64,000 nt of DNA from Acidimicrobiaceae bacterium. Its GTDB lineage: Bacteria; Actinomycetota; Acidimicrobiia; Acidimicrobiales; RAAP-2. Positions within the stretch are counted from its first letter, which is position 1. The number at the start of each line of letters is the position of its first letter. The notes under the pieces were generated by a model that was not told the DNA's origin, did no database searches, and worked only from the letters and a program-made list of their open reading frames with translations. The stretch spans positions 20,619-84,618 of the forward strand of contig PMFN01000047.1 in the NCBI GenBank assembly GCA_003155135.1, written 5' to 3'. Position numbers and translations under genes: made by a program. Below, piece after piece: positions 14,957 through 59,100 of the stretch.

Positions 14957-14978
14957 TAATATCGAACATATGTTCGAT
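14957..14978 (+). promoter_or_regulatory. LexA (SOS) box over a leaderless promoter and start codon
   Basis: ATCGAACATATGTTCGAT (14961-14978) is a perfect 18-bp palindrome containing CGAAC-N4-GTTCG, the Gram-positive and actinobacterial LexA operator. A TAATAT -10 hexamer (14957-14962) lies 7 nt before the ATG at 14970, so the transcript is probably leaderless and starts inside the operator. LexA bound here would block RNA polymerase directly. This indicates DNA-damage induction of the downstream helicase. Confidence 0.85.
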
Positions 14979-17030
14979 GTCCTTGAGGAACTCAATGAGG
15001 CCCAGCGTGAGGCGGTCATCCATGACGGGGGTCCTTTGCGGGTCCTGGCGGGAGCGGGCACGGGCAAGACGACGACGTTGTCCGCACGCGTCGCGTGGCT
15101 GCTGGCGCACGGCACGGCGCCCGAGCGGATCCTCCTTCTCACCTTCACCCGGCGTGCAGCGCGCCAGATGTTGCACCGCACCGCTGCGCTGCTGGCCCGC
15201 ACCGATGCGGAGGCCCAATCGGCGGCTCGGGTCGTCGGCGGGACGTTCCACGCGGTCGCGCATCGGACGCTCAGGCGCCACGCGCCGGCGCTCGGCCTCG
15301 CCGAGGGATTCTCCGTGCTCGACCCCGCCGACGCGGCCGACGTCATCGATATGGTGCGCGAGGAGGCGGGGCATGCCACGACCACGGGACGCCGCTTCCC
15401 CCGCAAGGCGCTGCTCGCCGATCTCTACTCGAGGGCGGTCAACACGGGGCGGCCCATCTCGGAGGTGGTTGCCGACGTCGCCCCCTGGGCGAACGACCTC
15501 GCCGAGCCGATCGGCGACATCTGCCGCGGCTACGTCGCACGCAAGCGGGCCGGCTCTCTCGTCGACTTCGACGACCTTTTGCTCCTCTGGCGTGCGGCCG
15601 CGGCCGACGAGCGTCTCGGCCCACGCCTTGCCGGGGCCTACGACCACGTGCTCGTCGACGAGTACCAAGACGTGAACGGCTTGCAGGTCGACGTGCTGCG
15701 CGCCCTGCGGCGTGATGATCGTCGGATCACCGTGGTGGGCGACGATGCCCAGGCCGTCTACTCGTTCCGGGCCGCCGAGCCCCGCCACATCTTGGACTTC
15801 CACCTGGCGTTCCCCGGTGCGCACACGGTGGTCCTGACCGCAAACTACCGGTCCACCCAACCGATACTGGACACGGCCAACGCGCTCGGGTCCGAGGCCG
15901 ATGAGGGGTTCTCCGCGGTGTTGCGCGCAGCGAAGGGCGCCTCTGGCGAGCGGCCGAAGCTGGTGCACTGCGCGGATGAGGATTCCCAGTGCGTGCATGC
16001 CTGCGAGCAGATCCTGGCGCATCGCGAGGAGGGGATAGCGCTGCGCGACCAGGCGGTGCTGGTACGCGCAGCGCGCCACTCGAACCTCCTCGAGCTCGAA
16101 CTCGCCGCCCGGCGCATCCCCTACGTGAAATACGGCGGGCTCCGCTTCACCGAGGCTGCCCACGTGAAGGACCTGCTGGCGGCCTTCCGGGTGGCGGATA
16201 ACGCCGCCGATGTCCTCGCCTGGTTCCGGGTGCTCCAGCTCCTCGATGGGGTCGGCCCGGTGATCGCCCGTCGGGCTCTTGCCGCCCTCGGCCTCACTGG
16301 CGTCGACATCGCGCACGCGGAGAACGGCGAGACCATGTCCCGCTGGCCTGTCGCCGCCGCAGAGCTCCCCGCCGCCTGCCGCCCGGCGGCAGGGGCCCTC
16401 GCCGACGCGATGGCGGGCCGTGAAGGTGAAGGCGTGGCGGCCCACGCCGAGCGCCTGCGAGCTGCGATGGCACCGATCGTGCAGCGCGCCTACCCCGATG
16501 GAGCGGCTCGGCTGGTCGATCTCGAGGCGCTGGTGGTGGCCGCGGCGAAGGTCAGCCGGCTGTCCGACGTGGCCGCGGACTTCGCCCTCGAGCCGCCTCG
16601 GTCCACCTCCGATCTCGCCGGGCCGCCCTCGATCGACGAGGACTGGCTGACCATCTCGACGGTGCACTCGGCCAAGGGCCTCGAATGGGACGTCGTGCAC
16701 ATCCTCCACGCCACCGACGGGATGATCCCGTCTGACATGTCACTGTCGACGCCGAGCGGACTGGAAGAGGAGCGGCGGGTGTTCTACGTGGGGTTGACCC
16801 GGGCGCGCAGATCCCTCTTGGTCTACCTACCGCTCCGCTACCACCACCGCCCGCACGGGCGCGACGACGCCCACGGCTGGGCGCAGCCGTCGCGCTTTTT
16901 GACCGAGAAGGTGCGGGCCACCTTCGACGATGTCCACGAGAGCTTCGACATCCTGGAAGCGGCAGGCGCTGGGGCGGCCGGTGACGGCCTGGCCCGTCTG
17001 AGCGAAACGCTCGAATCCCTCTGGTCCTGA
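14970..17030 (+). CDS. UvrD/PcrA-like ATP-dependent DNA helicase (LexA-controlled)
   Basis: 686-residue superfamily 1A DNA helicase. Motifs in order: Q motif LNEAQREAV, Walker A AGAGTGKTTTL, Ia TFTRRAARQM, II VDEYQDVN, III VVGDDAQAVYSFRAA, IV NYRST, V TVHSAKGLEWDVVHI and VI VGLTRARR. It should unwind DNA 3' to 5' in repair or fork restart. The length is below that of UvrD1/PcrA (about 720-770), and no HRDC domain of the UvrD2 type was noticed, so it may be an additional paralogue. The ATG at 14970 is fixed by the TAATAT hexamer 7 nt upstream; it lies in the middle of a perfect LexA box. No downstream gene is cotranscribed; about 420 bases of non-coding sequence follow. Confidence 0.92.
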   Translation: MFDVLEELNEAQREAVIHDGGPLRVLAGAGTGKTTTLSARVAWLLAHGTAPERILLLTFTRRAARQMLHRTAALLARTDAEAQSAARVVGGTFHAVAHRTLRRHAPALGLAEGFSVLDPADAADVIDMVREEAGHATTTGRRFPRKALLADLYSRAVNTGRPISEVVADVAPWANDLAEPIGDICRGYVARKRAGSLVDFDDLLLLWRAAAADERLGPRLAGAYDHVLVDEYQDVNGLQVDVLRALRRDDRRITVVGDDAQAVYSFRAAEPRHILDFHLAFPGAHTVVLTANYRSTQPILDTANALGSEADEGFSAVLRAAKGASGERPKLVHCADEDSQCVHACEQILAHREEGIALRDQAVLVRAARHSNLLELELAARRIPYVKYGGLRFTEAAHVKDLLAAFRVADNAADVLAWFRVLQLLDGVGPVIARRALAALGLTGVDIAHAENGETMSRWPVAAAELPAACRPAAGALADAMAGREGEGVAAHAERLRAAMAPIVQRAYPDGAARLVDLEALVVAAAKVSRLSDVAADFALEPPRSTSDLAGPPSIDEDWLTISTVHSAKGLEWDVVHILHATDGMIPSDMSLSTPSGLEEERRVFYVGLTRARRSLLVYLPLRYHHRPHGRDDAHGWAQPSRFLTEKVRATFDDVHESFDILEAAGAGAAGDGLARLSETLESLWS

Positions 17031-56110: not shown

Positions 56111-59100
56111 TTGTCCTCACGGTCCAGAAGTCCCGAGCGTGTTTCGTTCGCCAACATTGACGAGGCCCTGCCACTGCCGGACCTCATCGCCATCCAACGC
56201 GGTTCGTTCCAATGGTTCCTCGACAAGGGCCTGGCCGAGGCGTTCAACGACATCAGCCCCATCGAGGACTTCACCGGGCAGCTGAGCCTCGAGCTCGAGT
56301 TCGACCCGACTGACCCCGACCTGCGCCCGCCGCCGAAGTTCACGGTGGAGGAGTGCAAGGAAAAGGACATGACCTACGCGGCCCCGGTCTTCGTCCGGGC
56401 GCGCTTTTTGAACGCCACCACCGGCGAGATCAAGGAGCAGACGGTCTTCATGGGGGACTTCCCGATGATGACCGACCGCGGCACGTTCATCGTGAACGGC
56501 ACCGAGCGGGTGGTCGTGAGCCAGCTGGTGCGCTCCCCGGGCGTCATCTTCCAGCCCGGCCGCGATGCCAAGACCATCTTCACCGGCACCATCCACCCCT
56601 ACCGGGGTGAGTGGATCGAGCTCGACGTCGAGGCCAAGCCCTCCAAGGATGTGACCGCCGGGGCCCGCGTGGCCCGCAAGCGCCGTGTCTCACTCTTCGT
56701 GCTGCTGCGTGCCCTCGGCTACGGCGACGACGCCTTCTTGGAGCGCTTCGTGCGCCACTTCGACTTCCTCGAGGGCCAGTGGGAGAAGGAGCGCAACCTC
56801 GCCCCGACCCGTGAGGAGGCCCTGCTCGAGATCTACAAGCGCGCCCGCCCCGGCGAGCCGCTCTCGGCTGAGGCCGCACGCCAGTACTTCGAGAACGCCT
56901 TCTTCAACCCGAAGCGCTACGACCTCACGCGAGTCGGCCGCTACAAGCTGAACCGCAAGCTCGGCCCCGAGATCGAGCGGATCTCCGAACTGTTCGGCAT
57001 CGAGCTCGAGCGCCCGGTCCCGGGCCAGGGCGTCCTCAGCCCCTCGGAGATCCTGGCCTCTGCCACTTACATGCTCCACCTGGCCCTGCACATGGCCGAC
57101 GGGGACTCGACGTACCGCATCGACGACCAGGACCACTTCGCCAACCGCCGCATCCGCTCGGTGGGCGAGCTGATCCAGAACCAGGTGCGCGTCGGCCTTT
57201 CACGTATGGAGCGCGTGGTCCGCGAGCGCATGACGACCCAGGACGTCGAGGCCATCACGCCCCAGACGCTGATCAACATCCGCCCGGTGGTCGCCGCCGT
57301 GAAGGAGTTCTTCGGCACCAGCCAGCTGAGCCAGTTCATGGACCAGAACAACCCGCTGTCGGGCCTGGCCCACAAGCGGCGCCTCTCGGCCCTCGGCCCA
57401 GGTGGCCTGTCGCGCGAGCGCGCCGGCTTCGAGGTCCGTGACGTGCACACGTCGCACTACGGTCGCATGTGCCCGATCGAGACCCCCGAAGGCCCGAACA
57501 TCGGTCTGATCGGGGCGCTCGCCACGTACGCGCGGGTCAACGAGTACGGCTTTATCGAGACCCCCTACCGCCGGGTGACCGACGGGCGGGTGACCGACGA
57601 GGTCCTCTACCTGGCCGCCGACGAGGAGGAGGAGCACGTCATCGCCCAGGCCAACGCCTCGGTCGACGCAGCCGGCAACTTCACCGAGGACCGCGTCCTC
57701 GTCCGCCGCGGCCCCCAAGGCACCGGCGTGCGCATCGGCGTGGCCAACGCGTCCTACGGCACGACGAGCGAGATCGACTTCGTCCCGCCGTCGGAGGTCG
57801 ACCTCATGGACGTCTCGCCCAAGCAGATCGTCTCGGTGTCGACCGCCCTCATCCCCTTCGTCGAGCACGACGACGCCAACCGGGCCCTCATGGGCGCCAA
57901 CATGCAGAAGCAGGCTGTGCCGCTCGTCGTCCCCGAATCGCCGTACATCGGCACCGGGGTCGAGGCGCGTGCCGCCCGCGATGCCGGTGACGTGGTCCTC
58001 GCCGAGGGCGACGGCACGGTCGTCGAGGTCTCCGGCGACCAGATCAGCGTGGAGTACAAGGCGGGCCAGAAGGACCGCCTCGGCGTCGCACTGCCCCCGA
58101 AGAAGCCCTACCGCCTGGCCAAGTTCCGCCGCTCCAACCAGAACACCTGCATCAACCAGAAGGTGCTGGTCGAAGAGGGCGACAAGGTGACGGCCGGCTC
58201 GCTGCTGGCCGACGGGCCCTCTACCCAGAACGGCGAGCTGGCGCTTGGCAAGAACCTGCTGGTCGCCTTCATGCCCTGGGAGGGCTACAACTACGAGGAC
58301 GCCATCATCCTCTCCGAGCGCCTCGTGAAGGACGACGTCCTCACCTCGATCCACATCGAAGAGCACGAGGTCGACGCCCGTGACACCAAGCTCGGCGCCG
58401 AGGAGATCACCCGGGACATCCCGAACCTCTCCGAGGAGATCCTCGCCGACTTGGACGAGCGCGGCATTATCCGCGTCGGTGCCGAGGTCGAGCCGGGCGA
58501 CGTCCTCGTCGGCAAGGTCACGCCGAAGGGTGAGACCGAGCAGACCCCCGAGGAGCGCCTGCTCCGTGCGATCTTCGGTGAGAAGGCCCGTGAGGTCCGA
58601 GACACCAGCCTGAAGGTCCCCCACGGGGAGTCGGGCAAGGTCATCGACGTGCGGGTGTTCTCCCGTGAGGACTCCCATGAGCTGCCCCCCGGGGTCAACC
58701 AGCTCGTGCGGGTCTACGTCGCCCAGAGGCGCAAGATCTCCGAAGGCGACAAGCTGGCCGGCCGTCACGGCAACAAGGGCGTCATCTCCAAGATTCTCCC
58801 GATCGAGGACATGCCGTTCCTGTCTGACGGGACGCCCGTCGACATCATCTTGAACCCCCTCGGCGTGCCCTCGCGCATGAACGTGGGCCAGGTCCTCGAG
58901 AGCCATCTCGGCTACGCGGCCCGCCACGGCTGGGACGGGATCGAGGTCGAAGACGGCGTCGGGACGAGCGGTCGGGGTGACGGCGCGCTGCGCAAGACTC
59001 GCCCCCGCACGGTGCCCGCCGCGTGGGTTGCCACCCCGGTCTTCGACGGTGCCCACTGGGACGAGGAGGAAGACGCCGGTCGTCACCCGACCATCAAGAA

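Follow-up and report, generated by a model that had tools for sequence, protein, structure and literature searches.

The locus described here raises the question of how a perfect palindrome can lie across both the promoter and the first codons of a helicase gene, and whether its sequence is held in place by a repressor or by the encoded protein. Within the window (the whole 64-kb stretch of DNA that was analysed), a preliminary description had placed this palindrome over the edge of the −10 element and the ATG itself, and the sequence, its identity with its own reverse complement, and the coordinates listed in Table 1 confirm the placement. The arrangement is very probably a compact SOS promoter, in which 22 bp would accommodate the −10 element and the LexA operator together with the starts of transcription and translation, with LexA binding, leaderless transcription, induction by damage, and a role in repair all predicted from sequence. 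As long as the DNA is undamaged, the start site would be occupied by a LexA dimer and closed to RNA polymerase; damage would lead to RecA-stimulated self-cleavage of LexA, opening the site for RNA polymerase to transcribe a leaderless mRNA that begins at or beside AUGUUCG and could be translated directly. Such a geometry can work because RTG is read where the spacer R-N-R-Y runs into GTTC; a strong operator thereby contains a start codon that can be used.

Table 1. Positions of the features discussed (plain numbers are window positions; L numbers are loci)
Feature	Position	Strand	Remarks
−10 element TAATAT of the predicted leaderless promoter	14957..14962	+	From sequence; shares 2 bp with the left end of the palindrome
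Perfect 18-bp palindrome ATCGAACATATGTTCGAT, predicted LexA operator	14961..14978	.	Identical to its own reverse complement
Operator core CGAACATATGTTCG	14963-14976		Within the palindrome ATCGAACATATGTTCGAT
Predicted transcription start	14969..14970	+	7-8 nt past the −10 hexamer; coincides with the start codon; inferred from spacing and absent ribosome-binding site
Helicase ATG (14970-14972) and codon 2, TTC	14970..14975	+	Both within the right half of the operator
UvrD-like helicase (SF1A; 686 aa) belonging to a clade separate from PcrA/UvrD/Rep	14970..17030	+	Pfam, NCBIfam scores, tree, AlphaFold
CGAACN4GTTCG site upstream of recA	L001
Perfect boxes, three in a 76-bp interval flanked by lexA and a LysM-domain gene	L009 (G000:C31:52152-52227)
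CGAACN4GTTCG site upstream of an AlkB-type oxygenase	L012
CGAACN4GTTCG site at ruvC	L008
CGAACN4GTTCG site at an imuA-like gene	L004		imuB-like ORF comes after it
Loci of the HNH-type genes and PafBC motif	L236, L249-L261; also L202, L215, L262, L242, L243

The genome carries one LexA gene, with a C-terminal domain of the cleavable type; by inspection the protein is intact, with Ala-Gly, Ser, and Lys where a self-cleaving repressor should have them. A pattern search of the 3.14-Mb genome, counting exact matches only, found 16 CGAACN4GTTCG sites versus one for the reversed pattern, with about three expected from base composition. Several of these sites lie at genes typical of the SOS regulon (Table 1), of which recA, imuA, and imuB were named by reading their sequences, Pfam giving no match for the latter two. 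The spacers of the sites at the recA, lexA, alkB-type, ruvC, and imuA genes all follow RNRY (AGGT, GGGT, AGGC, ATAT, GCAT, AGAC, and AAGT), and where Y is T the last spacer bases form ATG or GTG with the G of GTTC; several other genomic sites have spacers of a different kind (CCCC, TCGC, GCTG, and CCTG). The helicase palindrome is identical to the LexA operator (SOS box) of M. tuberculosis, TCGAACN4GTTCGA, whose refined motif, MKWMTCGAAMRYWTGTTCGA, has [A/T]TG in the same place at the end of the spacer (PMC4181829). The list of genes also overlaps the known actinobacterial LexA targets recA, lexA, ruvC, imuA, alkB, and HNH/13E12 (PMC8151990, PMC4181829). The earlier assignment of positions 14961–14978 as a putative LexA operator is thus supported both by the LexA gene and by the recurrence of the motif at recA, lexA, ruvC, imuA, and the AlkB-type gene.

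Conservation of the site was assessed at the starts of orthologous genes. A search of relatives returned proteins with 46–54% identity, clearly apart from a PcrA-type group at 33–40%. When 395 genomes of the class were searched by alignment, 68 had the helicase family at E <= 1e-150; gene starts were taken from 74 genomes (40 genera and 18 families), many of them metagenome-assembled. An exact GAACN4GTTC marks the beginning of the gene in 67 of the 74 orthologues, and in 61 of them, representing 30 of the 40 genera and 13 of the 18 families, the start codon lies inside it, with the register GAAC-NN-[A/G]TG-TTC in 59 and a start moved 2 nt earlier in two. The remaining 13 comprise seven that lack an exact box and six that have a box with no start inside it under the rule used. 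When one sequence per genus is considered (29 sequences), GAAC and TGTTC are invariant and the following base is G in 28, whereas conservation between −45 and −16 is close to background. The left half of the box is non-coding, and its conservation therefore exceeds what the codons require, which is the outcome that the preliminary description had proposed to look for among relatives. Its retention by relatives shows that the layout is under selection rather than coincidental. The PcrA-type paralogue loci contain no GAACN4GTTC in any of 18 cases, across 3.7–4.9 kb each. One genome with the start-in-box layout, G037, which is 84% complete, gave no match to LexA. In the window, exact TCGAACN4GTTCGA occurs once, at this very site, with 0.0014 occurrences expected from base composition at 70% GC. 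A palindrome formed by chance, which would have nothing in its favor beyond the view from a single genome, is ruled out by this expectation, by the conservation among orthologues, and by the 16-to-1 count in the genome, and its probability is negligible.

The position of the start codon itself is well defined, as the ATG at 14970 is the earliest in-frame start and the next candidate, a TTG at codon 23, falls within the conserved domain. No Shine-Dalgarno-like sequence or other ribosome-binding site was found upstream of this ATG, and the 7-nt spacing between it and the −10 element fits a transcription start at 14969–14970. No TTGACA-like −35 element is visible by eye at the proposed promoter, a feature that would suit a different arrangement, in which the LexA operator is real, but the mRNA is not leaderless, with transcription starting upstream and the operator in the 5′ UTR and the beginning of the coding region serving as a roadblock. 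Such an arrangement is unlikely, as TAnnnT ends 7–10 nt ahead of the start codon in all 59 orthologues of the same register (exactly 7 nt in 40), which is the spacing for transcription starting at the start codon, and the ATG has no ribosome-binding site before it. From these two features we infer that the helicase gene is leaderless.

The overlap of operator and codons could also be read in the opposite direction: a need of the protein for Met-Phe at its N-terminus would keep the palindrome conserved, and the likeness to an operator would follow from the codons. Codon 2 is indeed TTC, and thus Phe, in 59 of the 59 orthologues of this register. However, the upstream, non-coding GAAC is conserved equally to the coding half, and Met-Phe is retained although its distance from the helicase domain varies widely, as in L025, where the start is about 100 nt upstream, or in L023. 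In the two f46 genomes the gene starts with ATG CGT TCG (ATGCGTTCG), encoding Met-Arg with the box intact, and unrelated RuvC, ImuA, and HNH proteins also begin with Met-Phe in the box. In RuvC homologues with N-terminal insertions (L201, L212, L229, L230, and L231), the [M/V]F start is likewise still found in the box. A requirement of the protein for Met-Phe is contradicted by the non-coding half, the Met-Arg starts, and the unrelated Met-Phe proteins, and it is highly improbable. Judging from these comparisons, the constraint stems from the operator and not from the protein. The suggestion that operator and first codons constrain each other holds in the sense that the site is conserved even where the protein has no need of it. 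The further proposal that the operator dictates the beginning MFDVL stands for Met and Phe and goes too far for the rest, as codon 3 nearly always starts with G and varies among D, A, E, V, and G.

The start-in-box layout is shared by other genes. Of 61 relatives, 57 contain the full pattern, TAnnnT followed after 0 or 1 nt by CGAACNNRTGTTC, against a single control match overall, and a sample of 296 genomes from across the phylum has it in 97; the genes starting inside the box are ruvC, an imuA-like gene, the UvrD-like helicase, and DUF222/HNH. Compared with the Gram-positive and actinobacterial SOS box as known, the ATG or GTG of the operator is here the start codon of the gene itself, in a register conserved across genera and unrelated genes. 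The LexA regulon of Streptomyces venezuelae uses the same operator class, with sites at ruvC, alkB, dnaE2, and lexA, but its validated ruvC and alkB sites begin 20–23 nt before the predicted start codon, unlike the layout described here, and its uvrD site is intragenic, with uvrD not responding to damage (PMC9380542). In M. tuberculosis, lexA, itself a gene of the LexA regulon, has a leaderless mRNA with coinciding transcription and translation starts; a start codon within the operator is not described in the available part of that report (PMC2897130).

The helicase has the Pfam domains UvrD-helicase and UvrD_C, and its AlphaFold model (pLDDT 86) has a UvrD fold, with UvrD, PcrA, and Rep as the best matches in the PDB. 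It thus has the SF1A fold in common with mycobacterial UvrD1, PcrA, and UvrD, but it scores far under the curated NCBIfam cut-offs for PcrA (TIGR01073), UvrD, and Rep, with 327, 303, and 270 bits versus 911, 1144, and 951, respectively; the gamma-, beta-, and alpha-proteobacterial orthologues are likewise far below them. In a tree of 44 proteins, in which the PcrA sequences are actinobacterial only, the helicase and 34 relatives from several phyla are separated from PcrA by a 100/100 branch. Membership in PcrA, UvrD, or Rep is ruled out by the cut-offs together with the tree. The PcrA-type copy in the same genome is an 831-aa open frame.

Promoters of the proteobacterial orthologues carry predicted operators of their own LexA types. 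Of 22 such promoters, 9 have a perfect CTGTN8ACAG, which no window in a control set of 1000 contains, and 17 match it at 7 or more of the 8 positions, versus 2.7% of controls; the alpha-type direct repeat, also at 7/8 or better, is present in all five alpha orthologues versus 8.6% of controls. These operators independently support an SOS-controlled helicase clade distinct from PcrA/UvrD/Rep, and putative LexA control of the clade through three operator types lends a damage-repair role support that does not depend on the actinobacterial data. Control of uvrD by LexA in some gamma-proteobacteria has been reported (PMC3323433). The same data bear on the identity of the repressor, since the assignment to LexA comes from sequence and a different repressor with a GAACN4GTTC-like site might control the helicase gene. 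The motif also occurs at recA, lexA, ruvC, and imuA, and the proteobacterial orthologues bear the LexA operators of their groups instead, which makes another repressor a very improbable choice. With LexA as the preferred regulator, the earlier view of an SOS-type helicase shorter than PcrA agrees with the two lengths and with the other LexA operator types in Proteobacteria. The product is probably an SOS-inducible UvrD-like 3′-5′ helicase with a role in clearing or repairing damaged DNA, its helicase activity being assigned by homology.

On balance, the data moderately favor a more general reading, in which the actinobacterial LexA operator is a recurrent promoter-operator-start-codon module, its RNRY spacer giving the RTG of leaderless SOS genes (helicase, ruvC, imuA, and DUF222/HNH), and the helicase belongs to an unnamed multi-phylum SOS clade that keeps LexA control despite the change of operator type. 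Taken singly, LexA operators, leaderless mRNAs, and helicases under LexA control are already known. In the literature searched, whose coverage left out key mycobacterial papers, no description was found of an SOS-gene start codon placed in the operator at a conserved register, and nothing was found that joins a start-codon-overlapping operator with a leaderless mRNA, that concerns LexA in Acidimicrobiia, or that mentions a “UvrD-like helicase”, in those words, in a LexA regulon. The module may therefore be considered new only provisionally. It offers a simple rule by which the same sequence can serve as repressor site and start codon, and it allows the start codons annotated for SOS genes of little-studied actinobacteria to be corrected, by seeking ATG-TTC in the box. 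It also points to an uncharacterised helicase clade that stays under predicted LexA control in different phyla, through three operator types, so that a role in damage repair is directly testable.

A few additional observations were made at related sites. The genome G062, of the same class, has 31 matches to the start-in-box promoter, and the 13 that were read resemble one HNH-type gene family and start with MFD. Most of these HNH-type promoters have TGTC[A/C]C, the mycobacterial PafBC motif (PMC8151990), exactly 10 nt before TAnnnT; with this motif and a LexA box in one short promoter, the genes would be both activated by PafBC and repressed by LexA. At the helicase promoter, the PafBC motif is complete in just one of the 55 promoters scored, and by inspection it is absent in the window. 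Elsewhere in the window, positions 56289–56304 (TCGAGCTCGAGTTCGA) differ from the operator consensus by one mismatch, probably by chance in CG-rich sequence. The box at the imuA-like gene (L004:1501-1514; G000:C17:190146-190159) is common to a divergent gene for SRAP (SOS response-associated peptidase) on the opposite strand, the likely start of which, MCGR, is 123 nt from the box, and this single operator may serve two SOS genes. Finally, a perfect box with an RNRY spacer (L013:1501-1514; G000:C34:27656-27669) is located about 20 nt before a gene with a weak DUF5997 match, which is a candidate uncharacterised SOS gene.
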